Source: Terriglobia bacterium
Lineage (GTDB): Bacteria; Acidobacteriota; Terriglobia; Acidiferrales; UBA7541
DNA length: 64,000 nt
NCBI GenBank assembly: GCA_020072785.1
Contig: JAIQGG010000003.1
Location: forward strand, 62,001 to 126,000
Direction of reading: 5' to 3'
Below the pieces are notes generated by a model, which was not told the origin of the DNA, ran no database searches, and worked only from the letters and a program-made list of their open reading frames with translations. Each line of letters begins with the position of its first letter. The first letter of the stretch is position 1. A program made the position numbers and the translations under genes. Of this stretch, positions 25,821 through 57,379 are shown one piece after another.

Positions 25821-25864
25821 GTCGAGGCGAAAAGATTTGAACCTTCGGCCTCCTGTTCCCGAAC
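25821..25864. repeat. Degenerate tRNA-Pro 3'-half copy (attachment-site-like, left)
   Basis: The 44 bases match 57305-57348, the 3' part of tRNA-Pro(CGG), at 40 positions and in the same orientation. Mismatches are at 25825, 25833, 25838 and 25856. The match stops inside the anticodon stem, and the rest of the tRNA is absent. This is the pattern left when an element integrates into the 3' end of a tRNA gene. Confidence 0.75.
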
Positions 25865-25979
25865 AACAAAGCAACTTCACAAGCCGTTGTACGGGCGTCA
25901 CTTACGGATCAGGAACCCTTCCAGTTGGGCTACTTGGGCAACCGCTCGCCCCGCAGACGAGAGCGCCAGAAAACACCAA

Positions 25980-26013
25980 GGGCTCCGAGACTGCATCTCG
26001 GAGCCCTTTCTTT
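25980..26013 (+). terminator. Intrinsic terminator
   Basis: An 11-bp perfect stem, GGGCTCCGAGA (25980-25990) with TCTCGGAGCCC (25996-26006) around loop CTGCA, is followed by TTTCTTT. It terminates + strand transcription roughly 190 bases after proline dehydrogenase. Confidence 0.85.
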
Positions 26014-26240
26014 GTGACCAGTGCGGACTGCCGTGATCTCCGTCTCCGCCCGCGCAACGCCGGGGACGACCTGCAGTGACATCTATTTACCCATGTGCGG
26101 TACGAGAACCTGGCAGGAAGGAATTACTGAGGGCGTTCGCGAGGCACGTGGGCGAAAGACGATTGGGCCCACAATTTACCATTGCTGGCAGGATGAAGCA
26201 GGGCAGGCGAAGATCTGCGTGGGAGTCGCGCCGCGAACCT

Positions 26241-26852
26241 TCAGGCCTTAGCGGCAGACTGCAGGGATTCCCATTTCATCTCCGCGACTCTCAGTTTCGG
26301 GTGGGAGACCAGGAGATGCCAAATCATCGCCTGAAAAGATTCCGTGTGCGGAGTCACCGTGGAGGAATTGACGACGGGAACAAGCACGCAGGCATTCGCC
26401 ACCTGAGCCGTGTAGCCTCCGTCGCGGCCGACGACGCCGCAAATCGTGGCGCGCACCTCCCGCGCGTAGTCGAGCGCCCGCACCAGGTTCGCGCTGACAT
26501 TCTTCTTGGCATCTCCGCCGCCGACGGAGATCACGAAGATCATGTCTTTTTCGTTCAACCGGCTCCCGCGCAGCCAATTGGCGTAGCACGTATCCCAGCC
26601 CTCGTCGTTCACCCGCGCTGTCAGTTCCGATACGTTGTCCGAGGGCGCGTACGCCTCGATCTGCGCGATCTTGCGGAAATCGCAGACCGCGTGGGACGCA
26701 TGGCCCGCTCCGCCGCCCACGCCAAGCACAAAAAGCCGCCCCCCTCGCTGCCGTAATTCCACGAGCAGATCCACGGCCTCCTCAATGGCCCGCTGATCCA
26801 CCTGCCGGAGAATCATTGTGGCTTCTTCGATATATTGCCTGACGTAACCCAT
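26241..26852 (-). CDS. SIS-domain sugar isomerase, GmhA-like (sedoheptulose-7-phosphate isomerase)
   Basis: A 203-residue single SIS domain. The phosphosugar loop is LFVLGVGGGAGHASHAVCDF, close to the GNGGSAxDAxHxAxE block of GmhA, and the C-terminal VTPHTESFQAMIWHLL resembles the GmhA tail helix. In heptose synthesis GmhA converts sedoheptulose 7-phosphate to D-glycero-D-manno-heptose 7-phosphate. The assignment is strengthened by HddA-like kinase and GmhB-like phosphatase genes upstream in the same unit. Some family residues differ, so another phosphosugar isomerase is possible. It is the last gene of the minus-strand polysaccharide locus. Confidence 0.8.
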   Translation of the reverse strand: MGYVRQYIEEATMILRQVDQRAIEEAVDLLVELRQRGGRLFVLGVGGGAGHASHAVCDFRKIAQIEAYAPSDNVSELTARVNDEGWDTCYANWLRGSRLNEKDMIFVISVGGGDAKKNVSANLVRALDYAREVRATICGVVGRDGGYTAQVANACVLVPVVNSSTVTPHTESFQAMIWHLLVSHPKLRVAEMKWESLQSAAKA

Positions 26853-26876
26853 CGCGATTGTCCTCCCCGAGTGACG

Positions 26877-27782
26877 TTAGTCCTGCTCTTTCCGCGCCAG
26901 CACCAGTGTGGAGTAGCCAACCAAAACTCGCCCCAAGGTGCCGTAATACAAAGCTTGCGACACCCAGCGCACCAGCATCTTCCCGAGATTCCGGCGCAAC
27001 TCGGCGTTGAAGATGAGCGGGGCGTTTTCCAGCGCAACAATTCGGAACCCGCCGTGCTGCAATAAAGCGGCGATGGTGCACGGTTGAAATGAGCACAGGT
27101 GGTCCGGCAGCTTGAACCCGGCGAGGACACTCTTGGGCTGTTCCAGCCAATAGGGATTCCGCAGTCCGAGCCTGCGCCGCAGCCGTCCGAGCAAATCGTG
27201 AAAGCGCGCATCCGGGACCACGACGGCAAGAACGCCTCCGGGCGCCAGAATTTGCCGAAGCTGTTCAAGGGTGCGTGCCGGATCCGGGAGGTGTTCGAGC
27301 ACGTTTAACAGGCTGATGACATCGAACTGCCGGCCGCCGCGGACCGCGAGGTATTCTTCAATCATTCCGTGATAGATCTCGATCCCGTGCTCCTCCCGCG
27401 CGAATTCCGAGCCGCTTTCCGACGGCTCAATGCCGAAGACGGAAAATCCTGCCTCTTTCATGCACCGCAGAAAATTCCCCGATCCGCACCCGATGTCAAG
27501 GACCGTCCCCGATCGCCTGATCCGCAGGATTGCCCGGCGCACCCCGCGATTGAAGTGCTCTTCCCTCTTCCGCCACTGCTCCCCGTCATCGTAGCTGGCG
27601 TAGAACTCGCGCAACTCTTCCGGCGCCGGTTGCGGATTCACGTACCAGAGCCCGCACTCCCGGCATTGCGCGATGCGGTATCCCCGCGCTTCCAGATACG
27701 GAACATGCTCGGTGCTTGAACAAACATGGCACGCTACTGTCTTGCGCACGCTGAGGGCACGACTTGTCGCATGAGTCGCCAT
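26877..27782 (-). CDS. Class I SAM-dependent methyltransferase with N-terminal zinc-ribbon-like motif
   Basis: A 301-residue enzyme. Near the N-terminus, CHVCSSTEHV...CRECGLWYVNPQP forms a two-knuckle Cys motif common in sugar methyltransferases of polysaccharide loci. The AdoMet site is TVLDIGCGSGNFLRCMKEAG with the acidic GIEPSESG block, and VISLLNVLEHLPDP is the usual motif after it. ATG 27782 is chosen because the longer frame (from 27866) would overlap gmhB and because GGGA lies just upstream. It probably methylates a sugar in the exported polysaccharide. Confidence 0.85.
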   Translation of the reverse strand: MATHATSRALSVRKTVACHVCSSTEHVPYLEARGYRIAQCRECGLWYVNPQPAPEELREFYASYDDGEQWRKREEHFNRGVRRAILRIRRSGTVLDIGCGSGNFLRCMKEAGFSVFGIEPSESGSEFAREEHGIEIYHGMIEEYLAVRGGRQFDVISLLNVLEHLPDPARTLEQLRQILAPGGVLAVVVPDARFHDLLGRLRRRLGLRNPYWLEQPKSVLAGFKLPDHLCSFQPCTIAALLQHGGFRIVALENAPLIFNAELRRNLGKMLVRWVSQALYYGTLGRVLVGYSTLVLARKEQD

Positions 27783-27828
27783 TCCCCGTAGCTCCCAGAA
27801 GTCAAGATACGTTCCTGCTGCGCGCAGG

Positions 27829-28467
27829 CTAACAACCCGCCGCCGGGCATCTCCGCGGCAAAACACTCTTCAGACAATCGCTCCCCACTTCCGACTGGAT
27901 AATCTGGCACGCTTCCCACAGATCCTTTGCTACCAGGTGAGGACGCACCTCGGGCCCCTCCGTAAACTGGCAGATCTCGCATTTCCAGCGGCCCGCAAAG
28001 ATCGTGCGGCAGCCGGCGCGCAATCCCGCGACCAAGTCGGGAATCCCGTCGCCGATCATGTAGCATTCATCGAGTCCGACCTTCAGGCTCTGCGCGGCCT
28101 GTTCCAGCATTCCAATTTCCGGCTTACGGCACCGGCAGCGCTGCCGCAACTCTGGAACGCGCCCTTCCGGGTGATGCAGGCAATAATAGATCCGATCGAC
28201 GCGCCCCCCGGCCTCGCCAATGCCCTCCAGCATCCTGCGTTCAAAAAGCTTCAGGGTATCCAGCTGGAGATGTCCCTTGGCGATTCCCGGCTGATTCGAC
28301 ACGATGGCGATTTTCATGCCTATGTCGTTCAGGACACGGATCGCCTCGGGAACACGAGGAAGCAGGGTGAATTGTGACGCGGTGAATGGCGCATCGATCA
28401 CGCCGGCGTCCTGGTGATAGACGAGGGCATTGATCACACCATCGCGATCGAGAAGAACTGCTTTCAT
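27829..28467 (-). CDS. gmhB: HAD phosphatase, D-glycero-D-manno-heptose-1,7-bisphosphate phosphatase type
   Basis: A 212-residue HAD-superfamily hydrolase. The nucleophile motif LLDRDGVIN opens the protein. SNQPGIAKG is motif 2, and YMIGDGIPDLVAG is the acidic motif. The zinc loop CLHH...RCRC (around residues 95-115) is diagnostic for GmhB-type histidinol/heptose phosphatases. GmhB removes the C7 phosphate from heptose 1,7-bisphosphate. It lies between a GHMP kinase and a methyltransferase in the same transcription direction. The C-terminus (RRCPAAGC) is longer than usual. Confidence 0.9.
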   Translation of the reverse strand: MKAVLLDRDGVINALVYHQDAGVIDAPFTASQFTLLPRVPEAIRVLNDIGMKIAIVSNQPGIAKGHLQLDTLKLFERRMLEGIGEAGGRVDRIYYCLHHPEGRVPELRQRCRCRKPEIGMLEQAAQSLKVGLDECYMIGDGIPDLVAGLRAGCRTIFAGRWKCEICQFTEGPEVRPHLVAKDLWEACQIIQSEVGSDCLKSVLPRRCPAAGC

Positions 28468-28597
28468 GTTTTGATTGCCTATGTGCCGGGCGATTTACCG
28501 CCTGCAACAATCGCTCGCAGCAGGTTCCGGCCCCGCAGGCACCCATGACCGCGGGAAAACTGGGGGATGAACAAGCAGAACTCTCCAACACGAATCG

Positions 28598-29668
28598 CTA
28601 GCCAGACGATTTTGCGGCCAGAACTAATCCGTTTTCGTGGTTGTTCTGCCGCTGGATATGCGCGAGACGCCCGTCGCGCGAAACGGCATCGAAAATGACC
28701 TTACTGCCTTCAAAATCGAACCGGAAGTTCAGTTCCCGCAAACCGGCATTTCGCATGGCCTCGCGCAATTGCGACTTCTTCTCCTCGCAGTAAAACATGA
28801 GAAATCCCCCGCCGCCGGCCCCAGAGATTTTCCCCCCGATGGCCCCGTTCTTCTTGGCCAGCTCATACCACGCGTCAATCTGCGGATTGGTAATCCCCGC
28901 GGAGAGCCGTTTCTTCGATTCCCAGTGCAGGTCCATTAATTCCCCAAAACGCCGCAGATTGCCCTTCGTGATTGCGCTGCAAATTTCGATCCCGACGTCC
29001 TTGATCTCGCGCAGGCTGCTTACGACGATCTGATCGTTGCCCCGGGTGGCCGCGTCCTGTTTCTGAAGAATCTTCGTGGCATCCCGTACGTCGTGAGTGT
29101 AGAAGAGCACAATATTCTGTTCCAGCCCCTCCAGCAGCTCCACGTTTAAGTTCATGCGCGCAACATCCACTTTGCCATCGTGGTCGATATTGAGCACCGT
29201 CAAGCCGCCGAAGGCCGCCATGTACTGGTCCTGCTTGCCAATAGGCTTTTGCAGCACTTCCAGTTCGAGGTAACACGCCTCTTCCGCTAGCTTCTGCGGG
29301 GTGGCCTGGTCCTGCCGCAGGACGTGCAGGGCATTGAGCAGCCCCACCAGGTACGAGCTCGAAGAACCCAGTCCGGTTCCCGCGGGTATGTCGGCGATCG
29401 AGACGATTTCCAGCCCGTTGGGGATGCCGAAGTAGCGCAACGCCTCGCGCGCCAGCGTGTGCTGCACTTCGTCCACATGGTCGACCATCTCGGATGTGCT
29501 GTAACGCACCCGAATCTTATCGTCCAGGATGGGCGTGTTCACGCTCAGAAACATGTACTTGTCGAGTGCCACCGCCAGAATCAGACCGCCATGCTCGCGG
29601 TAAAATGACGGGAGATCGGTGCCTCCCCCGCCAAGTGTGATCCGGAACGGCGTTCGTGTAATGATCAT
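28598..29668 (-). CDS. hddA: GHMP kinase, D-glycero-alpha-D-manno-heptose-7-phosphate kinase type
   Basis: A 356-residue sugar kinase. MIITRTPFRITLGGGGTDLPSF is the N-terminal block typical of HddA and related heptose kinases. The GHMP ATP loop is IPAGTGLGSSSSYLVGLLNA, and the third motif is GGKISGAGGGGFLMFY. HddA phosphorylates C1 of heptose 7-phosphate on the way to GDP-heptose. The start at 29668, behind a run of eight G residues, is preferred over 29698 because the protein then begins at the first beta strand. Co-location with gmhB and a gmhA-like gene supports the role. Confidence 0.88.
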   Translation of the reverse strand: MIITRTPFRITLGGGGTDLPSFYREHGGLILAVALDKYMFLSVNTPILDDKIRVRYSTSEMVDHVDEVQHTLAREALRYFGIPNGLEIVSIADIPAGTGLGSSSSYLVGLLNALHVLRQDQATPQKLAEEACYLELEVLQKPIGKQDQYMAAFGGLTVLNIDHDGKVDVARMNLNVELLEGLEQNIVLFYTHDVRDATKILQKQDAATRGNDQIVVSSLREIKDVGIEICSAITKGNLRRFGELMDLHWESKKRLSAGITNPQIDAWYELAKKNGAIGGKISGAGGGGFLMFYCEEKKSQLREAMRNAGLRELNFRFDFEGSKVIFDAVSRDGRLAHIQRQNNHENGLVLAAKSSG

Positions 29669-29737
29669 GCCCCCCCCTAACCGGATGAATTGCTGCAACT
29701 CTCATTGCCCGCAGAAACGTATTTCCGCTTGGTTTGG

Positions 29738-30697
29738 CTATGGCCTGGCGTGGGCCGCGGAAACATTTGCTAGCTCCGCTTCCCTCTGGAAGTAAGCCAC
29801 CGTCATGCCTGCTCCTTCGGAAAGGGTTACTTGCGGCTCCCACTGGAGAATGGCTTTCGCCTTCGCGATGTCGAGACAGATCCTGTCGATTTCCCCCGGC
29901 CGTCGCGGAACAAAGTGCGGCTCGACCCGTTTGCCCAGGAGGTCGCGCACGCGCTCGAATACTTCCCGGTCCCTAGTCTCCACGCCGCTGCCGATATTGA
30001 ATATCTCGTTGCTTCCCCGCTCCAGGGCCGCGACGTTCGCGGCGACGACATCAGAGATGTAGACATAGTCCCGTACTTTGTTTCCGTCTCCATAGATGAC
30101 CGGCTGGACTCCCCCCAGCATCTGCTCGGAGAAGATGGCGAATACCCCGGCCTCGCCCTGCGAGCTCTGTCGCGGCCCATATACGTTTCCGTACCGCAAA
30201 ACGGCATATTGCAGTCCGTAGAGAAACTGGAAGGTGAACAGGTAATGCTCTACGGTGTGTTTGCTGATGCCGTAGGGCGTGATGGGATTCATAGGGTAGC
30301 CTTCGGGAACGGGCGTCTTTTTGGGTTCTCCGTATCCTGCTCCCGCAGTGGCGGCATAGATAAACCTCTTTGTTCCGTGAGCCACAGCCGTTTCCAGTAA
30401 ATTGATGGAGCCGAGAATGTTGACCTGGGCGTCGAAGAGAGGCTCCCGAACGCCGCGCCGCACGTCCATCTGCGCTGCATGGTGATTGACGATCGTCGGC
30501 TTTTCCGCGCGGAAGATCCTCTCCATAGCTTCCCGGTCCCGGATGTCGCATTCATAGAACCGGCACTTTGGATTCACATTTCTCTTCGAGCCCCGGGACA
30601 GATCGTCGACAACCACAACCTCGTGGCCTGCTTGCACGTAGGCGTCGGCGACGTGCGAGGCAATGAATCCTGCGGCTCCCGTGACCAGTATTTTCAC
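29738..30697 (-). CDS. NAD-dependent nucleotide-sugar epimerase/dehydratase
   Basis: A 319-residue extended short-chain dehydrogenase. The Rossmann motif KILVTGAAGFIASHVADAY is at the N-terminus and the catalytic YGISKHTVEHYL supplies Tyr-x-x-x-Lys. ARYGNVYGPRQ-like (LRYGNVYGPRQ) and the C-terminal DIAKAKAILQWEP block place it among UDP-glucose/UDP-glucuronate 4-epimerases. The GTG at 30697 is the start because the preceding open frame overlaps the next gene and is not protein-like. It should supply an epimerised sugar nucleotide for the polysaccharide. Confidence 0.9.
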   Translation of the reverse strand: MKILVTGAAGFIASHVADAYVQAGHEVVVVDDLSRGSKRNVNPKCRFYECDIRDREAMERIFRAEKPTIVNHHAAQMDVRRGVREPLFDAQVNILGSINLLETAVAHGTKRFIYAATAGAGYGEPKKTPVPEGYPMNPITPYGISKHTVEHYLFTFQFLYGLQYAVLRYGNVYGPRQSSQGEAGVFAIFSEQMLGGVQPVIYGDGNKVRDYVYISDVVAANVAALERGSNEIFNIGSGVETRDREVFERVRDLLGKRVEPHFVPRRPGEIDRICLDIAKAKAILQWEPQVTLSEGAGMTVAYFQREAELANVSAAHARP

Positions 30698-30711
30698 ACT
30701 TCCCCCTTCAC

Positions 30712-32214
30712 TCAGTACGCCCCTTCGGCTTTCAGCACTTTCCAGAACGTTTTGGCGATGATCACCAGATCCAGCCAGATCGACCATTTGTCGATGTAGA
30801 ACATGTCCATCTGCACCCGCTCCGCATAGGTGGTCGTTTGCCGGCCCATGACTTGCCAGAATCCAGTTACGCCGGGTTTGACGGAGAGCAACTTTTCCAG
30901 CAGCGGCCCGTAGTGCACCGCCTCCTCCTCGCGAATGGTTCGGGGGCCCACGAACGTCAGATCCCCTTTCAGGATGCTGAAGAATTGTGGAAATTCGTCC
31001 AGGCTGGACCGGCGCAACAAACGGCCGATTCGCGTGACCCGCGGATCGTCGATCAGCTTCTGCTTTTCGCGGAAACGAGAGCGCAGCGCTGCGTCCTGCT
31101 CCAATATCCGGTCGGCGTCCACATGCATGGTCCGGAATTTCAGGTAATAGCGGATGCTGCCGTCCTGCCCCAAATACGCGCTTCGGTAGAACAGCGGCCC
31201 GCGCTCTTCCAGATTCACGAGCACGAAGATAACGGGGGTGAGCAGCAGCGTCACCGCGCTGCCGATGAGCCCAATCACCAGGTCCAGCCCGCGCTTGATC
31301 ACCCGCTGTACTGCGAGCGACCATTCCGGCTTGGCATAGAAACGGAAGCAGCCGGAGAATTCATCGTGTTCGTAGTTCAAATTGGCAGTGGCCAGAACGC
31401 TCGAATAGAGTTCCACGTCCACGCGCAGTTGCTTGCAGCGGAGCACGAGTTCCCGCAGCCATTCCTCGCCATCGGGAGCGGTAGGATAGGCCACGATAAG
31501 CAAGTTCGCTCCCGTACCTACCAGGGAGGCCTCCCAATCGTCTAGCGATCCCAGCACTGGAAGCGCGCGCATTTCCGCCGGGAGCGGCTCCGCCGCCGCG
31601 TCGAGCAGGATCCCGGCCACGTCGTAGCCTTGATGCCGCTGGATCGCAAGCAGCTGCTGGTATCCGCGCAGCCCGGCCGGAGAACCGATGAGCAGCGCGC
31701 GCCACCGGCACAGACCCGCCTTCCAAAGCTTTTCGTAGAGGGTTCGCAGCGTGAAGCGCAGCGCCAGCAACAGAAAACAAGCCAGCGCAAACCACATCAG
31801 CAGGAGGTACCGCGAAAACGCTTCCGCCCGGAAAACCACGAAGTTGAACAGCACCAGCCCCAGGAAACTCACCGTCAAGGCCTTGCAGCTCCGTTCCAGT
31901 TCCTGCTCCGGCCGGCGCAACTCCGGGCTCTTGTACCCTTCGAACAGGTACAGCACCACCGCGAAGAAGGGGATGTAGAAACGGTGGTACTCGGGGGGGT
32001 TGAGCCCGCTCAGGGGAATCTGCAGATAGTACTGCACAATGCGGACCGCAGCTATGTGCGCCAGCGTGATGGCCAGGACATCGCTCCCCAGATACGTCAG
32101 CTTGTGCAGTAGCGGCCATGCCAGTGGCCCGTAGGCAGGCCGCGCTTCGGCAGCTTCCGGCGCAAGCGTCAGCACTCCACTTTCCCGGTGCGCCATGGAT
32201 TCGCGTGTGGACAT
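30712..32214 (-). CDS. Polyprenyl glycosylphosphotransferase (WbaP/WcaJ-like), initiating sugar transferase
   Basis: A 500-residue inner-membrane enzyme that starts the repeat unit by moving a sugar-1-phosphate from a nucleotide sugar to undecaprenyl phosphate. The N-terminal half has four hydrophobic segments and a CoA-binding-like fold. A membrane re-entrant helix (about 310-335) precedes the catalytic domain, recognised by LKFRTMHVDAD, RVTRIGRLLRRSSLDEFPQ, LKGDLTFVGPRTIREEE and KPGVTGFWQVMGRQ. Position in the locus fits a single initiating transferase. The sugar could be glucose, galactose or another hexose. Confidence 0.93.
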   Translation of the reverse strand: MSTRESMAHRESGVLTLAPEAAEARPAYGPLAWPLLHKLTYLGSDVLAITLAHIAAVRIVQYYLQIPLSGLNPPEYHRFYIPFFAVVLYLFEGYKSPELRRPEQELERSCKALTVSFLGLVLFNFVVFRAEAFSRYLLLMWFALACFLLLALRFTLRTLYEKLWKAGLCRWRALLIGSPAGLRGYQQLLAIQRHQGYDVAGILLDAAAEPLPAEMRALPVLGSLDDWEASLVGTGANLLIVAYPTAPDGEEWLRELVLRCKQLRVDVELYSSVLATANLNYEHDEFSGCFRFYAKPEWSLAVQRVIKRGLDLVIGLIGSAVTLLLTPVIFVLVNLEERGPLFYRSAYLGQDGSIRYYLKFRTMHVDADRILEQDAALRSRFREKQKLIDDPRVTRIGRLLRRSSLDEFPQFFSILKGDLTFVGPRTIREEEAVHYGPLLEKLLSVKPGVTGFWQVMGRQTTTYAERVQMDMFYIDKWSIWLDLVIIAKTFWKVLKAEGAY

Positions 32215-32241
32215 GAACGACTCGCAGAACTGCGCGGGCTC

Positions 32242-32949
32242 CTAGCGGGCTCCCGTTGTCGCCACCTGGACTTTTGCTTTGCTCATTTGCGCCAGTGTTT
32301 TCTCCGCGTCCTGCACGAACTGGCGGACCGTCTCGCGGGTGTAGCGGTGATCCACCATCTTGGGCAGAAATTGCGGGGGAATCGTGATGATATGCGCCCC
32401 GGCCAGCGCCGCGTTCTGGATGTCCATGACCGTGCGGATGCTGCCCACGATGATGCGCGCCGGAAACTTCCACTCCTCCAGCCAGCTGCGCACGTTGCGG
32501 ATTACCACCGCCGGGTCATTCCCTTCGTCGGCGACGCGACCGGCGAAAATACTCACATAGGTCGCTCCCGCCTTGGCGGCCAGAATCGCCTGGTTGAACG
32601 ACAGAATCGCTGTGGCGTTGATCGCAATGCCTTCTTCCGTCAGCCGGTGCATGACCCCGAGGCAGGATTCCCCGTGTTCGTTGACCACGGGAATCTTCAC
32701 CACGATGTTGCGGGCCCAGGTGGCAAATGTGCGTGCCTCCTGGAGCATGGTTTCGCGGTCATTGGTAGTGACTTCCACGCTGAGCGGGCGTTCCTGCAGC
32801 AGTGCCGCGAGTCTCCGCGCGCCTTCCTCGATGTCCGGCACGCCATCCTTAAACATGATGCTGGGATTCGTTGTCGCCCCGTCCACGACTCCCTCTTCCA
32901 GCCAGTGCTCGATTTGCTTGTAATCTGCGGAATCCACGAAGATTTGCAT
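32242..32949 (-). CDS. Transaldolase-family protein (TalC/FSA-like)
   Basis: A 235-residue (beta/alpha)8 aldolase. MQIFVDSADYKQIEHWL and GATTNPSIMFKDG are the transaldolase N-terminal blocks; the Schiff-base lysine lies in NIVVKIPVVNEHG, and GITINATAILSFNQ-like (GIAINATAILSFNQAILA) and IIVGSIRTVMDI follow. The ATG at 32949 sits behind AAGGAGAAGCAGGA, so the longer frame to 33153 is rejected. The size suits the short TalC/fructose-6-phosphate aldolase subfamily. Inside a heptose-type polysaccharide locus it may make sedoheptulose 7-phosphate, the substrate of GmhA; that link is inference. Confidence 0.9.
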   Translation of the reverse strand: MQIFVDSADYKQIEHWLEEGVVDGATTNPSIMFKDGVPDIEEGARRLAALLQERPLSVEVTTNDRETMLQEARTFATWARNIVVKIPVVNEHGESCLGVMHRLTEEGIAINATAILSFNQAILAAKAGATYVSIFAGRVADEGNDPAVVIRNVRSWLEEWKFPARIIVGSIRTVMDIQNAALAGAHIITIPPQFLPKMVDHRYTRETVRQFVQDAEKTLAQMSKAKVQVATTGAR

Positions 32950-33156
32950 GTCCTGCTTCTCCTTTTCCAGAAATGGGCCTTCCACGAAGGGGGCCAGCAC
33001 AACCGCACCGTGCCGGCGGATCTCCTGGCATTCTCCCCTGCGCTGCCGGACCGCAAGGGATCGCACCCGCACGAACGGTCTGCAATGCATCTCTCCCGCC
33101 ACATCATGCGCCCAGCAGGGGGCCACCTCTTCCCCCAGACAGCGCCCCGGCAACGA

Positions 33157-34353
33157 TCAGGATTTCGCTAATTGCTGGTAGGCACGCAGGCAGTTCTCCA
33201 GAGCCGCGCCGTCCCACGAGAACTGCTCCTGGATACGCTGCCGGGCATTGCGCCCCAGCCGTTCCCGCAAGGGCTCATTCTGCAGCAATCTTTCCAGTTC
33301 CTGCACAAACCGCATTTCATCCCCCGGCGGAGTCAGGATTCCACTCTCTCCATTCACAATGTAGTCCGTGTTCTGCCCCACGGCGGTGGTCAGCACCGCC
33401 TTTCCCATGGCCATGTAGTCGATGATGCGCACCGAGCACTTCGCGCGGTAGATCTCATTGTCCGGGTACGGAAAGGCGGCAACATCCGCCGCGGCAACGA
33501 GCCGCACGAACTTTTCATAGGGTAGCCGCGGGAAAAAGCGCACCGTTACCCCTGTCTCGCCGGAGAAAAACTCCCTCACCTGCACTAACTCCGGCCCCTC
33601 GCCGACAAACACGATCGTCGCCCCCGTGCGCCGCGCTACCGGCGCCGCACCCCGGCAAAAGAGCATGATGTCGTCCCCTGGCTCGAAGTGTCCGCTGTAC
33701 AAAATCACGAGCGCATCGGAAAGCCCCAACGATTGTTTGGCACCGTTGCCGCTCGCAGCACGGATCCGTTCCTGCGCCGCAACGTTCGTTCGCGAGACCC
33801 CGCAGTTGGGTACATAAAAAACGCCGTTCGCCGACCCCCGCAGGGCCGCGGCTCTACGCGCCAGCACCTGGCTGGCCGCGGTTACTACCGGCGCTCGGCG
33901 CAGGAGCCATTTCTCCTGCCAGTCGATATACTCTTTCAGCAGCCAGGGATAGTCCTTGACCTCGTTCCACCCTCCCCATCCTTCCCAGTCGTCGCAGTCC
34001 AGCGCCACCGCGCGGCAGCCCCGCAGCAGCAGCCAGGTGCACGCCGCGCCCGCATACCCTTTTGGCTTGAACACGTGCACCACATCGGGCGCATACTTGC
34101 GAATCGCGAGACACAGCCTTCTCGCTATCAGCGGCGCGTGCCGTAACCCAGGCCTCGCCCCGACCTTCACGTTCACGATGTGCACACCTTCGAGTTCACG
34201 CTTCTGACTCGATTCGGCCGGGTTGTCGTAGGGTGCCAGGAAAATTGCAACTTCATGCCCTTTGTTTACAAGTTCTACGGCCAGCGGGAAAGCGCGCGCG
34301 CGGGCAGTCCCCTTCGGCTCCCAGGCAAATCCGCAAACAAAAGCAACCTTCAT
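33157..34353 (-). CDS. Glycosyltransferase, GT4-like
   Basis: A 398-residue GT-B enzyme. The N-terminal domain begins MKVAFVCGFAWEPKGTARAR with the glycine-containing loop of GT4 proteins. The C-terminal donor-binding half contains LVILYSGHFEPGDDIMLFCRGA, TIVFVGEGPEL and EIYRAKCSVRIIDYMAMGKAVLTT, where the E/D-rich block contacts the nucleotide sugar. It probably adds one sugar to the lipid-linked repeat at the cytoplasmic face. The gene lies directly downstream (7 bases) of another GT4 gene. Confidence 0.9.
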   Translation of the reverse strand: MKVAFVCGFAWEPKGTARARAFPLAVELVNKGHEVAIFLAPYDNPAESSQKRELEGVHIVNVKVGARPGLRHAPLIARRLCLAIRKYAPDVVHVFKPKGYAGAACTWLLLRGCRAVALDCDDWEGWGGWNEVKDYPWLLKEYIDWQEKWLLRRAPVVTAASQVLARRAAALRGSANGVFYVPNCGVSRTNVAAQERIRAASGNGAKQSLGLSDALVILYSGHFEPGDDIMLFCRGAAPVARRTGATIVFVGEGPELVQVREFFSGETGVTVRFFPRLPYEKFVRLVAAADVAAFPYPDNEIYRAKCSVRIIDYMAMGKAVLTTAVGQNTDYIVNGESGILTPPGDEMRFVQELERLLQNEPLRERLGRNARQRIQEQFSWDGAALENCLRAYQQLAKS

Positions 34354-49107: not shown

Positions 49108-49133
49108 CGCTCTTCCCCCCTGCCAATCGACCT

Positions 49134-49630: not shown

Positions 49631-49693
49631 TCTTAATGGGGATACACAGTCCCAGGCATCCCCGCAGTACCTATTCCACGACAAACCAGCCGC

Positions 49694-49864
49694 CTATAAG
49701 GAAAAATCGCAGTTGCGCACCGTCTCCACGATTTCAGAGCGGCTGTGCGCGTGTACCTGCCGCGAGATCCGGTGAACGTGGTTCTTGACGGTCTGTTCTG
49801 AAAGATGCAGATGGCTGGCACTTTCTTTGTTTGTATTAGCTATTTTTCGCCGGGATCGGAAACG
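49694..49864 (-). pseudogene. Remnant of a LuxR/NarL-type response regulator (HTH tail)
   Basis: On the minus strand the frame ending at TAG 49694-49696 reads IANTNKESASHLHL and then SEQTVKNHVHRISRQ. This is the recognition helix of a LuxR-type helix-turn-helix, with TNKE-x-A-x-x-L-x-L-SExTVKNH intact. It ends VHAHSRSEIVETVRNCDFSL. There is no start codon, receiver domain or full HTH upstream, so only the last 55 or so codons survive. It sits immediately upstream of the polysaccharide locus it may once have regulated. Confidence 0.75.
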
Positions 49865-49892
49865 CAACGAATCGAGGAGATGAGGGAGTCGG

Positions 49893-49923
49893 AAACAGAG
49901 AAGCCACCTCGTGAGGCGGCTTC
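49893..49923 (-). terminator. Intrinsic terminator after the PEP-CTERM gene
   Basis: GAAGCC (49900-49905) pairs with GGCTTC (49918-49923), extended by CCTC/GAGG across one A-C mismatch. On the minus strand it is followed by TCTGTTT. It lies 23 bases after the stop of the PEP-CTERM gene. Confidence 0.6.
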
Positions 49924-49946
49924 TTTGCTATCCAATGTTCAACAGT

Positions 49947-50603
49947 CTAGCTCGCGAATTGACGACGAGTTGTCAGAGCGAGACCGGCGAGCCCGCAACC
50001 GAGCAAGATGATCGTGCCCGGCTCGGGAACTGTGGTTGTCGTGAACGCACCGGCATAATCCAGACCGTAGGAGCTGCCGGCTTTTTGGTAGACCGTGAAA
50101 GAAATCGTATTGGAGCCATTCGAGTTGAGGTAAGGCTGCAACTGTGACAGGTTGAAAATCCCCGCCGTGCTCGTCAAGCAGCCAATGGCTACGGACGAAC
50201 AGGTGGGGTAGGAACCGCCCATGTTAGCCCAGAAGATTGGCGTTCCATTCACGGCGACCGAGGCCGTATCGTCAGCCAGGACCGTCAGTGTGGCGGCTGT
50301 GATGGGACCAGACAGGCTGAAAGTATCAAAAAACGTGACGCCGGTCTCGTTGGGCACGGTGTAGAAATCCGGATCAGAAGGATTGCCGGTGTTTGTGAAT
50401 GATACCCAATTAGACCCGGGTAGTGGCCCGGACCAGGCTGGATGTGGAGCAATGTCTTGGGTAGGACCAGCATTGGGAATACCCAAGGTGATCGAGTTGT
50501 TGGTTGTGTTGGCGGCAGAGCTGGCAATCTGAGTGACTGTATCTGCATTCACGGTCATCAGAGAACCACTCATGACCAAGATCAAAGCGAGTTTCTTTAA
50601 CAT
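49947..50603 (-). CDS. PEP-CTERM sorting-domain protein
   Basis: A 218-residue exported protein. It has a signal peptide (MLKKLALILVMSGSLMTVNA), a Thr/Ser/Asn-rich beta domain, and the tripartite C-terminus VPEPGTIILLGCGLAGLALTTRRQ: the PEP motif, a hydrophobic helix and a basic tail. Such proteins are cut and anchored by an exosortase and are associated with exopolysaccharide production. No exosortase gene is in the window. It lies next to the polysaccharide locus in the same direction, but a terminator and a broken regulator separate them. The body resembles small PEP-CTERM surface proteins with a jelly-roll fold. Confidence 0.9.
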   Translation of the reverse strand: MLKKLALILVMSGSLMTVNADTVTQIASSAANTTNNSITLGIPNAGPTQDIAPHPAWSGPLPGSNWVSFTNTGNPSDPDFYTVPNETGVTFFDTFSLSGPITAATLTVLADDTASVAVNGTPIFWANMGGSYPTCSSVAIGCLTSTAGIFNLSQLQPYLNSNGSNTISFTVYQKAGSSYGLDYAGAFTTTTVPEPGTIILLGCGLAGLALTTRRQFAS

Positions 50604-51082
50604 TTTCTAATCTTTCTACAATTACAATTTCACGCGCCCACAATGCGAACAGATTGCGAGCCTGTAGCTAAACATCCGCTTAAGATAATGTGCAACTTCT
50701 TCGCCAGTTTATCCGAGTTAGAAACAAAAGACTTGGGGTGCAGGGCCACATAATGGCTGCAAGTAATTTTGCTCGTTCCGGAAAATCTTTTCTGAATTAG
50801 AGGAAATTGCTTGTGCAGTTTCATCAGTCAGGCAACTTGGGCAACCGGAAGGAACAACAAAAGCGGCGTAACTCGTTGAAGAAAATGGTCGGGGCGAAAG
50901 GATTTGAACCTCCGGCCTCCTGGTCCCGAACTATGAACACCAAATCCCATGAACGCTTTCTCTGGCGCCGCTTACCGGACGAAGGGCGTTATTTTTCCTT
51001 TCTTAGTTGTACCTAACTTGTCTCTAACGCATCATCTTATTACCATCGGTGTTGGACAGTGGACTTCTCCCCGTTCGCCTCT
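50604..51082. other. Gene-free junction between the PEP-CTERM gene and the efflux module
   Basis: About 480 bases, more AT-rich than the surroundings. The only recognisable element is the truncated tRNA-Pro copy at 50884-50931. A short in-frame reading across it (GAKGFEPPASWSRT) is just translated tRNA sequence. No promoter, terminator or integrase remnant was recognised. Confidence 0.6.
50884..50931. repeat. Truncated tRNA-Pro copy (attachment-site-like, middle)
   Basis: 48 bases match 57301-57348 at 46 positions (mismatches at 50905 and 50912), same orientation. They cover the 3' CCA, acceptor strand, T arm, variable loop and half the anticodon loop of tRNA-Pro(CGG). Beyond it the sequence is unrelated. 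It and the intact tRNA bound the efflux module as direct repeats. Confidence 0.85.
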
Positions 51083-54000
51083 CTAAAGTTCGCGTTCCAG
51101 CCTCTCAAACCGGCCATAACGCAATGACAAGCTCGGTAGAACCAGCAAGTTCAGCGCGGTCGACGTCAATAAACCGCCAAGAATCACAATGGCCATCGGA
51201 CCCTCGATCTCGCGGCCCGGTGCGCCACTGCCAAGCGCCAAAGGAAGCAGCCCCAAGCCGGTAACGAGCGCGGTCATCAGGATCGGTGCGAGGCGCTCAC
51301 TTGCGCCCCGAAGTGCAGTTTTCAAGCCCCAATCCATTCCTTCCGCGCCCACAAGATGCTCATAATGAGAAATCATCATGATGGAATTTCGCAGCGTGAT
51401 TCCAAAGAGGGTTACAAAACCGATGAGCGATCCGAGCGATAACGTCCCGCCCGTGGCTACGACAGCCAGGACGCCTCCCACAAGCGCAAAGGGCAGGTTC
51501 GCAAGGACCAGTAGCAGATTGCGGTAGTTCCCCATGACCACCGAGAGGAGCAGCACGATCCCCAGTCCCGCCAGCAGCGCGTGGACCAACAGATCATGGC
51601 GGGATTGAGACTGGGCGGCTGCCGTGCCAGCGAATTCCACATAAGTCCCGGGTGGAAATGATAGTTTGGAAATGTGGTTCCGGGCTTCGGTTACGAACGA
51701 AGTCGGGTCACGTCCCTGCACATTGCACGTCACTGTCTGCACTCGGCGTGCGCCTTGGTGCAGGACCATGTAGCGCCCGGAGGTTTCGTAGATGTCAGCA
51801 AGCTGCCGAAGTGGCACATAGTTCCCGTCAGGTCCTCGCAGCGGAAGGGCGCCTATTTCCTGCACGCTATTGCGTTCAGACGGCGCGAGAATTACGGAGA
51901 CGTCGAACACTCGATTATCTTGATAGACTTGGCCAACGATGTCTCCGCCAAAGGAGGTTTGCACCACATCAAGGACATGCACTGCGTCGAAGCCCCAGCG
52001 TGCAAGATCATCCTTCCGCAAGCGGACGACAACCTGCGGCATTCCCGGCGGCGACTGAAGCTGAACTCCGGTAGCACCTTTAATACGGCTCAACGTGCGA
52101 GTGACTTCTCGTGCTTCGTGGTCAAGCCGGTCGAGATCGTTGCCAAAGATATTGATCACGATTCCGCCGGTGTAGCCGGAGAGTGTCTCGTTAATGCGTT
52201 CCGTGAGGAAGCTGTTCGCCGAGAAGGTCGCGCCGGCAAACTTTGAGAGCGCGCTCCTGATGTCCTTCTGTGCGGCTGCCATTCGCGTTCCGTTGAGAGC
52301 GTTAAGACTCACGTCAAACTCGCTTGAGTGGGTTCCGGCAACATCATCGGCAAGTTCAGCCCTTCCCACCCGCTGAGCTACCGAGCGCACACCAGGAATA
52401 CCCAAGAGCGCGTGAGTGACGCGGTCGCCCAAACGCGATGATTCTTCAACGGAAGTCCCCGGAACCGTCGTCATATGCACCGTGAGGTTTCCCTCTTGTA
52501 GACGCGGAAGGAAGGAACCTTCCAGAAAAGGCAGAATGGCAACGCCGAGAACAATCATAACGGCAACGACCGCAATCACGAGTCGCGGCGACTTTTCGAC
52601 TCCTAGCAACAGCTTTTGATATCTAGCCCTTGACCAGCGAACGATGGGCGGCTCCTGAGGCGGAAGATCACGATCACCTAACAAAAGAAAACAAAGAGCA
52701 GGCGTCACGGTCAAAGCCACCACCAAAGAGGCCAAGATTGCCAAGATGTAGGCTGTGCCAAGAGGAGCAAAAATGCGGCCCGCGAGGCCCGACATCGTGA
52801 GCACCGGGAAGAAAACAAGAATCACCGCGAAAGTGGCATAAACGACGGCGCTGCGTACTTCGAGTGAAGCATCGAACACGACCTGTAACACGGATCGGGG
52901 AGATTCGGATGCGCGATTTTCGCGCAGTCGCCGATAGATGTTCTCCACGTCGATAACAGCGTCGTCCACGACCTCTCCGATGGCGATCACCAATCCACCC
53001 AGAGTCATGGTGTTCAGGCTGAAACCGAGCTTTTCGAGCACGATCACCGCCGCCAGCAGCGAAAGGGGAATGGCAGTGCAGGAGATCGCCGCCGTACGCA
53101 GGTTGAAGAGGAACAAGAACAACACCACGACAATCAGCGCGGCCCCGATGAGCAAGGATGATCGGACGTTGCGCAGCGCCGTCTCGATGAAGTCAGCCGG
53201 ACGAAAAATATCGGGATGTACGACGATTCCCTGTTTCGAAAGAGCGGGACGAAGCTCCGCGAGCGCCTGGTCGAGTCCCCGCGTAACTTCGAGCATGTTG
53301 GCTCCGTACTGCGAGGAAACCATCAATATGAGGCCGCGCTCGGCTCGGATCGAGGCTGCGCCAATAGGCGGCGCAGGAGCGTCAACCACGTGACAGACAT
53401 CCCCCAAGGTGACGTTCGCTCCGTTGCGGTGGAGAAGAACGACGCGGGAGATTTGCTCCGCTGTGCTCGACTGACCCTCGGTCTGTAGCACAATCCGCTG
53501 ATTGGGCGTGTCTACGAAACCGGACCCGCGAATGCCGGTTGCCTGACGCGCGGCAGCGATGACGTCATCGACCGTCAATCCGTACCGAATAAGCTGCTGG
53601 GGGATAAATTGAAGTTGGATTTGGCGGGCCTCTTCTCCGAAGATCGCGATTTTGGCCACTCCCGGCACGGCCAAGAGCCGTTGCTTGAGTGTCCAGTCTG
53701 CAACCGTAGTCAGGTCCATCAGGGGATGGTTAGGCCACGTGAGTCCCACGGCCATCACAATACTCGTCGAAGAAGTGAGCGGGGTCATCACTGGCGGACT
53801 GACTCCAGTTGGTAGCCGCCCGGTGAGCGTGGACAGTCGTTCGCCAACGACCTGTCGGTCAAGGTAAATGCTGCTGCTCGGACGAAAGACCACAGTGATC
53901 AAGGAGAGTCCCTGGACGGAGCCGGATCGGAGGGAATCGATTCCCGAAACCCCGATGACCGCGTTTTCAATCGGCTGCGTGACCAGGACTTCGACCTGTT

Positions 54001-54175
54001 CAGGAGCCAGTCCCGGCGCCTCGGTCTGAATTACGACCTGCGGCGGTGCGAACTCCGGGAAGACGTCGTACCGCGCCTGCGTCAGCGAGTAAACACCATA
54101 GCCGAACAGCGCACAGGCGAGCGCGATAACAATGCCGCGAAAGCGAAGCGAGAACCGAACGATGGATGAGAGCAT
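51083..54175 (-). CDS. RND efflux permease, CusA/CzcA-like
   Basis: A 1030-residue inner-membrane proton-driven pump subunit with twelve hydrophobic helices and two large periplasmic loops. FPEFAPPQVVIQTEAPGLAPEQVE is family-typical (given here in parts: FPEFAPPQVV and APGLAPEQVE). Helix 4 carries GGLVIAIGEVVDDAVIDVEN, whose acidic residues form the proton relay. Sequence features favour the heavy-metal (HME) branch, but the ion or drug is not predictable. It is last in the order outer membrane factor, adaptor, permease on the minus strand. Confidence 0.93.
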   Translation of the reverse strand: MLSSIVRFSLRFRGIVIALACALFGYGVYSLTQARYDVFPEFAPPQVVIQTEAPGLAPEQVEVLVTQPIENAVIGVSGIDSLRSGSVQGLSLITVVFRPSSSIYLDRQVVGERLSTLTGRLPTGVSPPVMTPLTSSTSIVMAVGLTWPNHPLMDLTTVADWTLKQRLLAVPGVAKIAIFGEEARQIQLQFIPQQLIRYGLTVDDVIAAARQATGIRGSGFVDTPNQRIVLQTEGQSSTAEQISRVVLLHRNGANVTLGDVCHVVDAPAPPIGAASIRAERGLILMVSSQYGANMLEVTRGLDQALAELRPALSKQGIVVHPDIFRPADFIETALRNVRSSLLIGAALIVVVLFLFLFNLRTAAISCTAIPLSLLAAVIVLEKLGFSLNTMTLGGLVIAIGEVVDDAVIDVENIYRRLRENRASESPRSVLQVVFDASLEVRSAVVYATFAVILVFFPVLTMSGLAGRIFAPLGTAYILAILASLVVALTVTPALCFLLLGDRDLPPQEPPIVRWSRARYQKLLLGVEKSPRLVIAVVAVMIVLGVAILPFLEGSFLPRLQEGNLTVHMTTVPGTSVEESSRLGDRVTHALLGIPGVRSVAQRVGRAELADDVAGTHSSEFDVSLNALNGTRMAAAQKDIRSALSKFAGATFSANSFLTERINETLSGYTGGIVINIFGNDLDRLDHEAREVTRTLSRIKGATGVQLQSPPGMPQVVVRLRKDDLARWGFDAVHVLDVVQTSFGGDIVGQVYQDNRVFDVSVILAPSERNSVQEIGALPLRGPDGNYVPLRQLADIYETSGRYMVLHQGARRVQTVTCNVQGRDPTSFVTEARNHISKLSFPPGTYVEFAGTAAAQSQSRHDLLVHALLAGLGIVLLLSVVMGNYRNLLLVLANLPFALVGGVLAVVATGGTLSLGSLIGFVTLFGITLRNSIMMISHYEHLVGAEGMDWGLKTALRGASERLAPILMTALVTGLGLLPLALGSGAPGREIEGPMAIVILGGLLTSTALNLLVLPSLSLRYGRFERLEREL

Positions 54176-54184
54176 GGGGGGCAG

Positions 54185-55240
54185 TTAGTCCTCCGCTTGG
54201 ATTTGCGAACGGAACTCCGCGGACAGGAGCGCCTGCGCTCCCCGGACGACGATCTCGTCTCCGGGTGAAAAGCCCCTTGCAACGAAGAGTCCGTTCGCGA
54301 GCGGCGTCTCAGCGGGAACCAGGCGACGGACAAAGCGACCGGGTGCGTTCTGCTGATACACCCAGGCGCTCCCCCGCCACCATACGATCGCCGATTGTGG
54401 AATCAGCACTCCGCGCATCGGCCGGCCGACCGTCAAGCGAGCGATTAGGTTTAGCCCCGGCGCGAGACCAGGATGATCACGAGTAATACAAAGGAGGCTG
54501 AGGCCCTGAATTCGCGGATCGACTCTGGGAAAAGGTGAAATCAGCTTCGCCTCGATTTGGGTCGATTCCGCGATTTCGAGTGAGATCGTTCTGGGAGCCG
54601 TCCAGCCTACGCCTGTAGGCAACGTCACCTGCACCAGAAACGCATGTTGGGCGAGAATGCCACCCAGCGCAGGCGCGTCGTCGACGACCCACTTTGCGAC
54701 CACGTCGCCCCAACTCTGGCGCACCGCTGCCGCTTGCAACGACAAATCCTGCATAGCAGCCTCAGCGTCCGCTTGGTCCGAGCGCAAGACGCCCTGCACA
54801 GCCTGTAAATCCTTCTGTGAGGCGTTCTGCTGGTCTTGGTACAAAGTCTTCAGGCGGTCATACTCCAGTTGTGTCACCTCCATGTTCGCCCGCACCTTCT
54901 CTAGATTGGCTGTAGCGGCCACGTATTTAGCGCGTGCAGTGACCAGTTCCTGGCCTGATAAGACGATTGCGGGGGCAGTCACCTGCTCGCGTGAAGTGAG
55001 CGCTTGGAGAGGAGTCACGGTGATTCCCGTTTGGGATTGCGTATCGGCATCGAGGGTGAGGATCGTTTGTCCGTTCTGGATGGAAATCTTTGACGGCGTC
55101 TTGTTCGCCTCTTCTGTGTCGCCTTCATCCCCTTGATCGGCTGCCACTTTCCGGCCCGGAACGAGAGTGAGAGTCAAAATGAGCGCCAGAATCAGCGCAA
55201 GGCCTGCTCCGAATAGCCACTTCCCGTTTGTCTTCATCAC
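54185..55240 (-). CDS. RND periplasmic adaptor (HlyD/CusB family)
   Basis: A 351-residue membrane-fusion protein. A signal anchor (WLFGAGLALILALILTLTLV) is followed by a lipoyl-like beta segment (ILTLDADTQSQTGITVTPL), an alpha-hairpin (YVAATANLEKVRANMEVTQLE...), and a C-terminal beta domain ending GDEIVVRGAQALLSAEFRSQIQ. It links the permease to the outer-membrane channel. It overlaps the upstream TolC-type gene by four bases and ends nine bases before the permease, so all three are one transcription unit. Confidence 0.92.
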   Translation of the reverse strand: MMKTNGKWLFGAGLALILALILTLTLVPGRKVAADQGDEGDTEEANKTPSKISIQNGQTILTLDADTQSQTGITVTPLQALTSREQVTAPAIVLSGQELVTARAKYVAATANLEKVRANMEVTQLEYDRLKTLYQDQQNASQKDLQAVQGVLRSDQADAEAAMQDLSLQAAAVRQSWGDVVAKWVVDDAPALGGILAQHAFLVQVTLPTGVGWTAPRTISLEIAESTQIEAKLISPFPRVDPRIQGLSLLCITRDHPGLAPGLNLIARLTVGRPMRGVLIPQSAIVWWRGSAWVYQQNAPGRFVRRLVPAETPLANGLFVARGFSPGDEIVVRGAQALLSAEFRSQIQAED

Positions 55241-56652
55241 TTTTTCTCCTTCGCGTGATTCTTCACAACAGGGGATTGTGGGCCGAGTGGCGGAATGTCG
55301 CCGGGTTCCAGTGGACGCTGGATAGCGTCCTCCAGGCTTCCCAGAGCAATTTGGGTGCGATAGAGTGCAGCCACTTCCGCACCCGCCGCTAGAGCGCCCT
55401 GGAGAAGCTCGCCGCTGAGCGGAAGCGGCCCTGACTCACCAGCCTTAAACGCCTTCTCCGTTAACTGAATTCGCGCCCTATGAAGCTTCTGCAATGCTTT
55501 CGTTTCCGCAAGCTCTTTCCACGCTCCGCTGTAACTTGCCGCTGCCGCTTCGGTCTCCGCTATCACACGGGCTTGCGTCGCGAGGAAATTGGCTGCGGCT
55601 CCTCTGCGCCGAGCCTCCGCCTCGGCAATCGGTCCCGCGTTGCGGTTGAAGATCGGAAGGGTGACCGAGAGTCCGACCGTGAAGAAGTTGTGGCTTTCTT
55701 CATAATGGTAGCCCGGCCCGATTTGAACATCGGGATATTGCCGGGCGATTTCGAGTTGAAGGCTGGCTTCCGCAGCGCCATATTGAGCAAGAGCCTGTCG
55801 AACGTCCAAGCGGTTTAGCACTGCTTCCCGCGGGATTCCCCCGGAAGCGAGAGAGTCGAGGCTGGGCGGGTTCTCAAAGGTTGGCCACGTAAACTCCAGA
55901 CCATTCAGAGCCGCAACGGGGATGCCAATCGCAGCGGCTAGCGCCGCCCGAGTCTGCGTTATTTGGCTTTCGGCGCGAAGAACCGCCAAATGTGTGTTTG
56001 CTAGATCGATCCGCGCCAAATCCACTCCTGGACGAGAGATTTCGCCAACAGCAAGCCTTTTTTCCAACAGTTGCACGCGGTCAGACAGAATGCTCTCTTG
56101 CGAACGCAACTGGTCCGCACTTCGAACAGCGACAAGGTAATTAAGCAGGGCCGTGCGAACTTTGCTTCGAACCGTCCACGCAGTATTGGCCAGCTTAAAC
56201 CGGGCCGCTTCACTCCAGTTTTTCGCTTGAAGTATTTGATAGCCGCGCTTCCCTGCTGTTTGGATCGGGATCGCGAAATCTAGTCCGAACAAATACGGAC
56301 TAGGCACTCCAGGAGTTACACTCAAGGTGGGATTGGGACGCGCTCCTGCTGTGATAACAGCGGCCGCCGCCACGTTGGTTTGCGCCCGAGCCATTTCCAT
56401 TTCGGGGCTGAAATAGAAGGCCGCAAACGTCAGCGAACCGAGGTCCCAGCTCTTCGGTGGCCACGAGCTTAGCTGATGGCCAAGATTCCTTTCCAAAAAC
56501 TCCCGCAGACCGGCATCCTGAAGGTTTCTGGATTCCAGACTTGCGGCGCTTTCAGCGGGCGATATGGGTGCTTTGCGATACTTCTGCATCGCACACCCCG
56601 CCATCAAGAGAGAGACGACCAGCGACAAACTCAATGCTCTGACAGAATTCAT
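55237..56652 (-). CDS. Outer-membrane efflux channel, TolC/CusC family lipoprotein
   Basis: A 471-residue outer membrane factor. The lipobox LLMAGCAMQ near residue 20 predicts lipidation. The body shows the two-fold repeat of long helices with Ala/Arg/Glu heptads, and LPIFNRNAGPIAEAEARR in the second repeat is typical of CusC/CzcC proteins. It forms the channel of the tripartite pump. The start codon lies 80 bases downstream of a small membrane protein gene that probably belongs to the same operon. Confidence 0.92.
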   Translation of the reverse strand: MNSVRALSLSLVVSLLMAGCAMQKYRKAPISPAESAASLESRNLQDAGLREFLERNLGHQLSSWPPKSWDLGSLTFAAFYFSPEMEMARAQTNVAAAAVITAGARPNPTLSVTPGVPSPYLFGLDFAIPIQTAGKRGYQILQAKNWSEAARFKLANTAWTVRSKVRTALLNYLVAVRSADQLRSQESILSDRVQLLEKRLAVGEISRPGVDLARIDLANTHLAVLRAESQITQTRAALAAAIGIPVAALNGLEFTWPTFENPPSLDSLASGGIPREAVLNRLDVRQALAQYGAAEASLQLEIARQYPDVQIGPGYHYEESHNFFTVGLSVTLPIFNRNAGPIAEAEARRRGAAANFLATQARVIAETEAAAASYSGAWKELAETKALQKLHRARIQLTEKAFKAGESGPLPLSGELLQGALAAGAEVAALYRTQIALGSLEDAIQRPLEPGDIPPLGPQSPVVKNHAKEKK

Positions 56653-56732
56653 AAGGACTCCCGCGCAACAGTAATGGGGAACGACTGCTCAGGCCATCGG
56701 GGACAGCCAGTACAGCCAGCGCGAGGATTGTT

Positions 56733-57038
56733 CTAGATGCGGAGAGGGGGCGGAGATAACCCAAGGAACGGACGTGAGCAGGCTGAATATGAAAATTCTT
56801 CCAACAAGGGAGCAGGCGGCAGAGCGGATTCTTTGCGTGGCCTGCGAATTATGCCGCGCAGAAGATGCGACAGCGCGGCCACAGCACCGAGAGAGACGGC
56901 AACAACAACTAAGTTGAGGACGATATCCTTTCCACTCTGGGGAAAATGATCCCAGTGGTCTACCCTCTCGAACGCAGGGCCACACAAATACGTGACCAGC
57001 AGAAGCACGACCGCGACTTGGCAAAGCCTTTTCTGCAT
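56733..57038 (-). CDS. Small membrane protein at the head of the efflux operon
   Basis: A 101-residue protein with two hydrophobic stretches (VAVVLLLVTYLCGPAF and IVLNLVVVAVSLGAVAALSHLL) separated by a short loop containing His and Asp residues (ERVDHWDHFPQSG). I do not recognise a named family. The His/Asp-rich loop could touch metal, which would suit a metal-efflux operon, but this is inference. It is preceded by a good -10 element. Confidence 0.7.
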   Translation of the reverse strand: MQKRLCQVAVVLLLVTYLCGPAFERVDHWDHFPQSGKDIVLNLVVVAVSLGAVAALSHLLRGIIRRPRKESALPPAPLLEEFSYSACSRPFLGLSPPPLRI

Positions 57039-57047
57039 CCTTTAGTC

Positions 57048-57077
57048 AGTATAGGCACTTCCAGCATCACGTTGCAA
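57048..57077 (-). promoter_or_regulatory. Putative promoter of the efflux operon
   Basis: On the minus strand TTGCAA (57077-57072) and TATACT (57053-57048) are 18 bases apart. The -10 element is one mismatch from consensus. It is only nine bases before ATG 57038, so the transcript would be almost leaderless, or the true start is further in. Confidence 0.4.
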
Positions 57078-57251
57078 CAATGACCGGGTAGGTTGGTCCC
57101 TTTCGTTGCAAAACACGAATCCTGCTCCCAAAACCTTGACAAAAAACTCGCGGCCAAGCTGAATTGGGAGAGTACGGCCCTGATTTTATGGGACAATTGG
57201 GAGGCGAATCGGACCGATACCAATCAATGAGTGCCTTGTAGGGAAAAAGAC

Positions 57252-57265
57252 TTGCGTGCACGCAA
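57252..57265. repeat. 14-bp perfect palindrome beside the tRNA 3' end
   Basis: TTGCGTGCACGCAA is a perfect palindrome 37 bases from the 3' end of tRNA-Pro(CGG), inside the proposed island edge. It could be an operator or a recombinase arm site. A similar half, TTTGCGCGG, follows directly. Confidence 0.5.
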
Positions 57266-57302
57266 AATTTGCGCGGTAACACAATGATTTGATAGAAGGG
57301 AA

Positions 57303-57379
57303 TGGTCGGGGCGAAAGGATTCGAACCTTCGGCCTCCTGGTCCCGAACCAGGCGCGCTACCAGGCTGCGCTACGCCCCG
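57303..57379 (-). tRNA. tRNA-Pro (anticodon CGG)
   Basis: Read on the minus strand, acceptor CGGGGCG pairs with CGCCCCG. The anticodon stem CCTGG/CCAGG encloses loop TTCGGGA with anticodon CGG at 57345-57343. The T arm contains GGTTCGAATCC and CCA is encoded. It reads CCG codons. Its 3' part recurs at 50884 and 25821 in the same orientation, which marks it as an integration site. Confidence 0.96.

Follow-up and report, generated by a model that had tools for sequence, protein, structure and literature searches.

Two stacked and decayed genomic islands probably occupy a proline tRNA gene that serves as an integration hotspot in a genus of Acidobacteriota

Integration that regenerates the target tRNA gene, crossover at a subsite in the anticodon loop and the formation of tandem arrays are all established by Islander (PMC4383910), in which 125 tandems of two or more islands and 4 of three or more occur among 3919 islands. 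These islands carry a regenerated tRNA gene at one end and a same-orientation 3' fragment of it at the other, and the region described here resembles them in both respects, as well as in its anticodon-loop crossover and its tandem arrangement. Islander, however, demands an integrase gene for each island, whereas the two islands in our window (the whole 64,000-nucleotide stretch of DNA that was analysed) have none left. Their cargo also has familiar counterparts. The larger island shares Wzx, Wzy, Wzz, Wzi, an SLBB export protein, glycosyltransferases and heptose-precursor enzymes with surface-polysaccharide (Wzx/Wzy) loci, but the locus in the window, instead of holding a fixed housekeeping position, is enclosed by two att sites of a tRNA hotspot. 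The smaller island resembles CusA/CzcA-type heavy-metal RND systems (TIGR00914) in its three-gene pump and in the best family match of its permease, which falls just under the curated NCBIfam subfamily cut-off (662 vs 701 bits). The type of event is ordinary and known; the contribution here is a well-documented case, and a hotspot, in a little-studied phylum (Acidobacteriota subdivision 2).

The intact tRNA-Pro(CGG) gene, identified by ARAGORN and Rfam (67.7 bits), lies on the minus strand at 57303-57379. Both displaced copies of its 3' half are on the same strand, on its 3' (downstream) side. The nearer, at 50886-50931, matches tRNA positions 32-77 at 44 of 46 bases (96%, E 6.6e-15 in a search of the source genome), and the farther, at 25821-25864 (start about 25819), matches positions 32-75 at 40 of 44 (91%, E 4.1e-11) and begins about 27 bp past the stop codon of a proline dehydrogenase (ProDH) gene. 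BLAST within the window returned them as 50878-50931 (54 bp, 92.6%) and 25809-25864 (56 bp, 85.7%), again in the same orientation. The original prediction, made from the letters of the window, was that three same-orientation 3' parts of this tRNA all break in the anticodon loop; these searches bear it out, with the break at position 32, just ahead of the anticodon (35-37). Fragments scattered through the genome would have spoken against islands, and these two are the only 3'-half copies of tRNA-Pro(CGG) in the 3.73-Mb genome at E<=0.001. Four other matches are other tRNA genes (Pro-TGG, Pro-GGG and two Ala), another, at C6:103377, derives from part of tRNA-Pro(TGG), and a hit of 31 bp at C1:341820, the weakest of all, was set aside. 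Read antisense, the tRNA 3' half at 50884-50930 (plus strand) gives GAKGFEPPASWSRT, a spurious reading-frame motif that may carry a hypothetical-protein annotation elsewhere.

The region is bounded on the left by the backbone gene for ProDH (24851-25792, plus strand) and on the right by that for an RtcB ligase (57506-58978, plus strand), which are 93% and 96% identical, respectively, in the closest relative, G007. G007 and the window align collinearly on both sides at about 89-94%, over 959-25795 with few gaps and over 57301-59107, where the alignment (91%) takes in the G007 tRNA and its other flank. Some 4.8 kb is inserted in G007 at window position 16464-16500 of the otherwise collinear left flank. 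Window 50827-50931 also aligns to the G007 tRNA plus flank (92%), the tRNA running straight into it. As the G007 tRNA continues directly into the sequence beyond the copy at 50.9 kb, the 6.4 kb that separate this copy from the tRNA in the window, missing from G007 at that exact point, are an insertion in the tRNA 3' half. The polysaccharide block is present in both G007 and the window while the efflux block is found in the window only, and the polysaccharide island is therefore the older of the two. The greater divergence of its displaced copy, and that copy's greater distance from the tRNA, agree with this order, as had been anticipated from the older look of the farther copy.

We conclude, with a probability of about 0.92, that the 31.5 kb between ProDH and tRNA-Pro(CGG) consist of two stacked genomic islands that were inserted by tyrosine integrases and have since decayed. 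Each island would have been integrated by a tyrosine integrase that recombines within the tRNA gene, at the anticodon loop; the incoming element's own tRNA 3' half would complete the gene, and the 3' half already there would be displaced from it together with all that lay farther out. The polysaccharide island (25.07 kb) would have come first, before the split from G007, and only a tail of 14 codons would be left of its integrase after decay; the efflux island (6.42 kb) would have arrived later, in this lineage only, and would have lost its integrase and left arm. The intact tRNA thus marks the attL side of the youngest island, which supplied its 3' half (57303-57348); the copy at 50886-50931 is the attR of the efflux island and the former attL of the polysaccharide island, and the copy at 25821-25864 is the attR of the latter. 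That both elements were inserted by integrases of the kind present in relatives, the order of losses and the present immobility are what we infer from these comparisons.

The polysaccharide island occupies 25865-50885 (unit length 25,067 bp). It encodes a heptose pathway with GmhA-, GmhB- and HddA-like enzymes, together with glycosyltransferases, epimerases, Wzx, Wzy, a NusG-like protein, Wzz, Wzi, an SLBB export protein, a regulator remnant and a PEP-CTERM protein. Its tRNA-side end retains the last 14 codons and stop of a lost tyrosine integrase (VRQLGQPEGTTKAA, 50827-50871, plus strand), with some 15 bp between it and the 3' end of the displaced tRNA copy. The differences between this VRQLGQPEGTTKAA-stop tail and its counterpart in G007 are all synonymous. 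G007 itself has an internally deleted integrase between the tRNA and the polysaccharide genes, recognised as two separate blocks that match a profile built without G007, and this relic ends in the same C-terminal tail as window 50827-50871. The earlier remark that no recombinase is visible therefore holds for integrase genes, none of which is left, but not for this tail. Arm repeats are also retained at both ends of the island: GGCAACTTGGGCAACC on the L side (50831-50846, plus strand) and GGCTACTTGGGCAACC on the R side (25928-25943, plus strand), which agree at 15 of 16 bases, and the arm CGGTTGCCCAAGTWGCC is found at both ends with 16 of 17 bases. The pair scores 15, compared with at most 11 for non-cognate pairings, bar one artefact of overlapping sites.

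The efflux island (50932-57302; unit length, copy to copy, 6,417 bp) carries three minus-strand genes, encoding an RND efflux permease (CusA/CzcA-like, 51083-54175), the periplasmic adaptor of the pump (54185-55240) and an outer membrane efflux protein of the TolC/OEP family (55237-56652). Among the 36 genomes of the genus, the pump is present in this genome alone (E<=1e-200). The distal (R-side) att arm of the island lies at 50932-51022 (minus strand). Compared in register over the 90 bases by the crossover, it agrees at 61-68/90 with arms in five genomes (G002, G010, G015, G016 and G018), which gives z-scores of 12-14 relative to shuffled sequences. This att-arm family is visible only by in-register comparison; a plain genome-wide search with the arm alone returned a single relative at E<=0.01. 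The tRNA end of the island has no counterpart to this arm, i.e., there is no matching arm pair, and neither tblastn with three tRNA-adjacent integrases nor inspection of the six-frame translations of 56600-57303 revealed an integrase remnant. Several other islands included in the arm test likewise have no matching arm pair, and with the efflux island among them we regard the test as supportive rather than decisive.

To place the window in its genus we used a sample of 36 genomes, with relatives found through the ProDH gene next to the distal copy; these are metagenome-assembled genomes of Acidobacteriota/Terriglobia, many of them named 'gp2' (subdivision 2). Displaced 3' halves starting at positions 26-33 number 31 in 18 of the 36 genomes (E<=1e-9; counted by hand from the listing), and two further genomes of the genus have weaker ones. 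Wherever the tRNA and a copy lie on one contig, the copy is on the same strand and downstream (twice each in the source genome, G015 and G009, and once each in G013, G048 and G038, the last from another family). The interval from tRNA-Pro to ProDH spans 13.4 kb in G050, 14.0 kb in G009, 25.4 kb in G004, 28.8 kb in G007, 31.5 kb in the window and 68.3 kb in G048, and its contents have essentially nothing in common with the window except for the polysaccharide genes of G007. The proposal to look for tRNA-Pro copies with other cargo is thus answered by at least 18 of the 36 genomes, with intervals of 13-68 kb and unrelated contents. In G022 a displaced copy is directly behind a backbone block that adjoins ProDH, much as the distal copy in the window is directly behind ProDH itself. 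The island-side sequence by the displaced copies is conserved between genomes, and a GTAAG-type motif lies about 43 bases from the crossover in about half of 27 sites, both window sites included. RtcB was tried as a genus-wide marker of the site and failed, being accessory: close homologues beside tRNA-Pro(CGG) are found only in the source genome, G007, G009 and G005, at the same place in the last two as in the window.

In six relatives (G005, G006, G015, G017, G022 and G042) tRNA-Pro(CGG) is adjoined, in antisense orientation, by a full-length tyrosine integrase whose stop is 17-32 bp from the tRNA 3' end, and truncated integrases are found at the same spot in G013 and G011. The other neighbour of the tRNA in G005 is RtcB, so that it has the rtcB-tRNA flank in common with the window. 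These tRNA-adjacent integrases match Pfam Phage_integrase and are pairwise 23-67% identical. The elements of the six relatives have the same target gene and crossover region as the window, and that of G015 also belongs to the att-arm family of the efflux island; they differ from the window islands in having full-length integrase frames (roughly 300-490 codons) and other cargo. Within the window, the Pfam search of the source genome gave no integrase match and tblastn none better than E 6.6. Since neither island has its own integrase left, both look fixed, as had been proposed; a Pfam search finds integrases elsewhere in the source genome, and these may mobilise the islands in trans. The Pfam matches of the scanned ORFs include neither conjugation genes (relaxase, type IV secretion), which an integrative and conjugative element would carry, nor phage structural genes, which a prophage would carry. 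Both islands have a regenerated tRNA at one end, a same-orientation 3' fragment at the other, a break at the known crossover subsite and, in relatives, variable cargo at the same site. We file them as decayed islands rather than active elements.

The most serious alternative is that the polysaccharide locus belongs to the resident chromosome and is not one island, with only small elements having inserted at the tRNA; the copy at 25.8 kb would then stem from an older and unrelated insertion, the rest of which recombination has replaced. The locus is common to G007 at the same place, where only its tRNA-side part is highly similar (89%), its middle being 67-70% similar and its left part replaced by what reads as a different set of glycan genes; G+C ranges from 0.50 to 0.70 across the locus, and no tRNA fragment is detectable beside ProDH in G007. 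All of this would suit a resident locus, but both of its ends bear the arm repeat GGTTGCCCAAGTWGCC, with one of the two copies inside the integrase tail, and the locus is missing from the interval in G009, G004, G050 and G048, as well as from the examined parts of it in G043 and G022. We therefore consider a resident locus unlikely. Replaced glycan-gene sets are usual for such polysaccharide loci. The different left part of G007 and its lack of a ProDH-side fragment do mean that rearrangement of the 25-kb block may have followed its insertion; the block is a mosaic whose ProDH-side end was not kept in G007.

Two other histories fare much worse. Had the whole 31.5 kb moved together as one composite island, the copy at 50.9 kb would be an internal remnant, consistent with the same tRNA repeat flanking both parts; in G007, however, the polysaccharide part occurs with no efflux part and the junction falls exactly at that copy, and we regard a composite as very improbable. 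Segmental duplication through homologous or illegitimate recombination between proline tRNA genes, with no site-specific recombinase, has nothing specific in its favour: tRNA-Pro (GGG) does lie 54 kb from tRNA-Pro(CGG), in the opposite orientation, but the 5' breakpoint recurs at positions 26-33 in many genomes, integrases adjoin the tRNA and conserved att arms lie beside the break, so that this reading is in practice refuted. Stacked integration into the tRNA 3' end, which the original prediction had suggested, is instead supported by the empty site of G007, the integrases of six relatives, the genomes with fragments (at least 18 of 36), the att arms and the matching arms of the 25-kb island. 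The proposed comparison with relatives yielded an uninterrupted site for the efflux island, in G007, and none for the polysaccharide island among relatives of the genus. In none of the 36 genomes is tRNA-Pro joined directly to ProDH, and the fully empty site is for that reason one that we infer.

A further observation runs against two stacked islands as the best explanation. The T-stem allele of the G007 tRNA is GTTGG/CCAAT, which differs from that of the window's displaced copy, all three window copies being GAAGG/CCTTT or one change away; insertion followed by loss, or compensatory change, could account for the G007 allele. Across tRNA genes and displaced copies we found the alleles GAAGG/CCTTT, GATGG/CCATT, GTTGG/CCAAT and GGTGG/CCACT, and in G015, G009 and G024 paired T-stem changes likewise separate the tRNA from its displaced copies, which would be expected of islands that each bring a 3' half of their own. 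We tentatively propose, as an idea that we hold at somewhat less than even odds, that several divergent integrase lineages have converged on the 3' half of tRNA-Pro(CGG) as a dock in this genus, that large polysaccharide loci come and go there and that each tenant replaces the tRNA 3' half. If so, the T-stem alleles would record the sequence of past tenants.

Overall, these data assign a complete surface-polysaccharide locus, along with a pump operon, to what are probably decayed mobile elements in an uncultured acidobacterium from soil, and they identify a genus-wide integration hotspot together with the anatomy of its att sites. Islands without an integrase escape tools that require one. Here the genomes of relatives made it possible to recognise both islands, to tell which of them arrived first and to find the relic of one integrase.

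Several further observations concern att sites and tRNA genes. At several att sites (L050, L014 and G015 C19 near 7977) a degenerate second tRNA-Pro-like copy lies 45-90 bases beyond the first; these may be what remains of very short insertions that were stacked there, or else belong to the att site itself. At G018:C141:66866-66907, the 5' half of tRNA-Pro(CGG) (positions 1-41), with its normal upstream flank, is joined to an apparent reversed att arm near the contig end, which looks like an assembly variant or an unusual junction. Elsewhere in the source genome, an integrase relic related to the G005/G015 type lies beside tRNA-Arg(TCT) (G000:C2, about 604.8 kb) and another integrase beside tRNA-Cys (G000:C2, 342.7 kb). 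Finally, tRNA-Pro(TGG) of the same genome (G000:C6:117523-117599) has a displaced 3' fragment (53/57) on its own strand, 14.1 kb downstream at 103377-103433; the two probably delimit another island.
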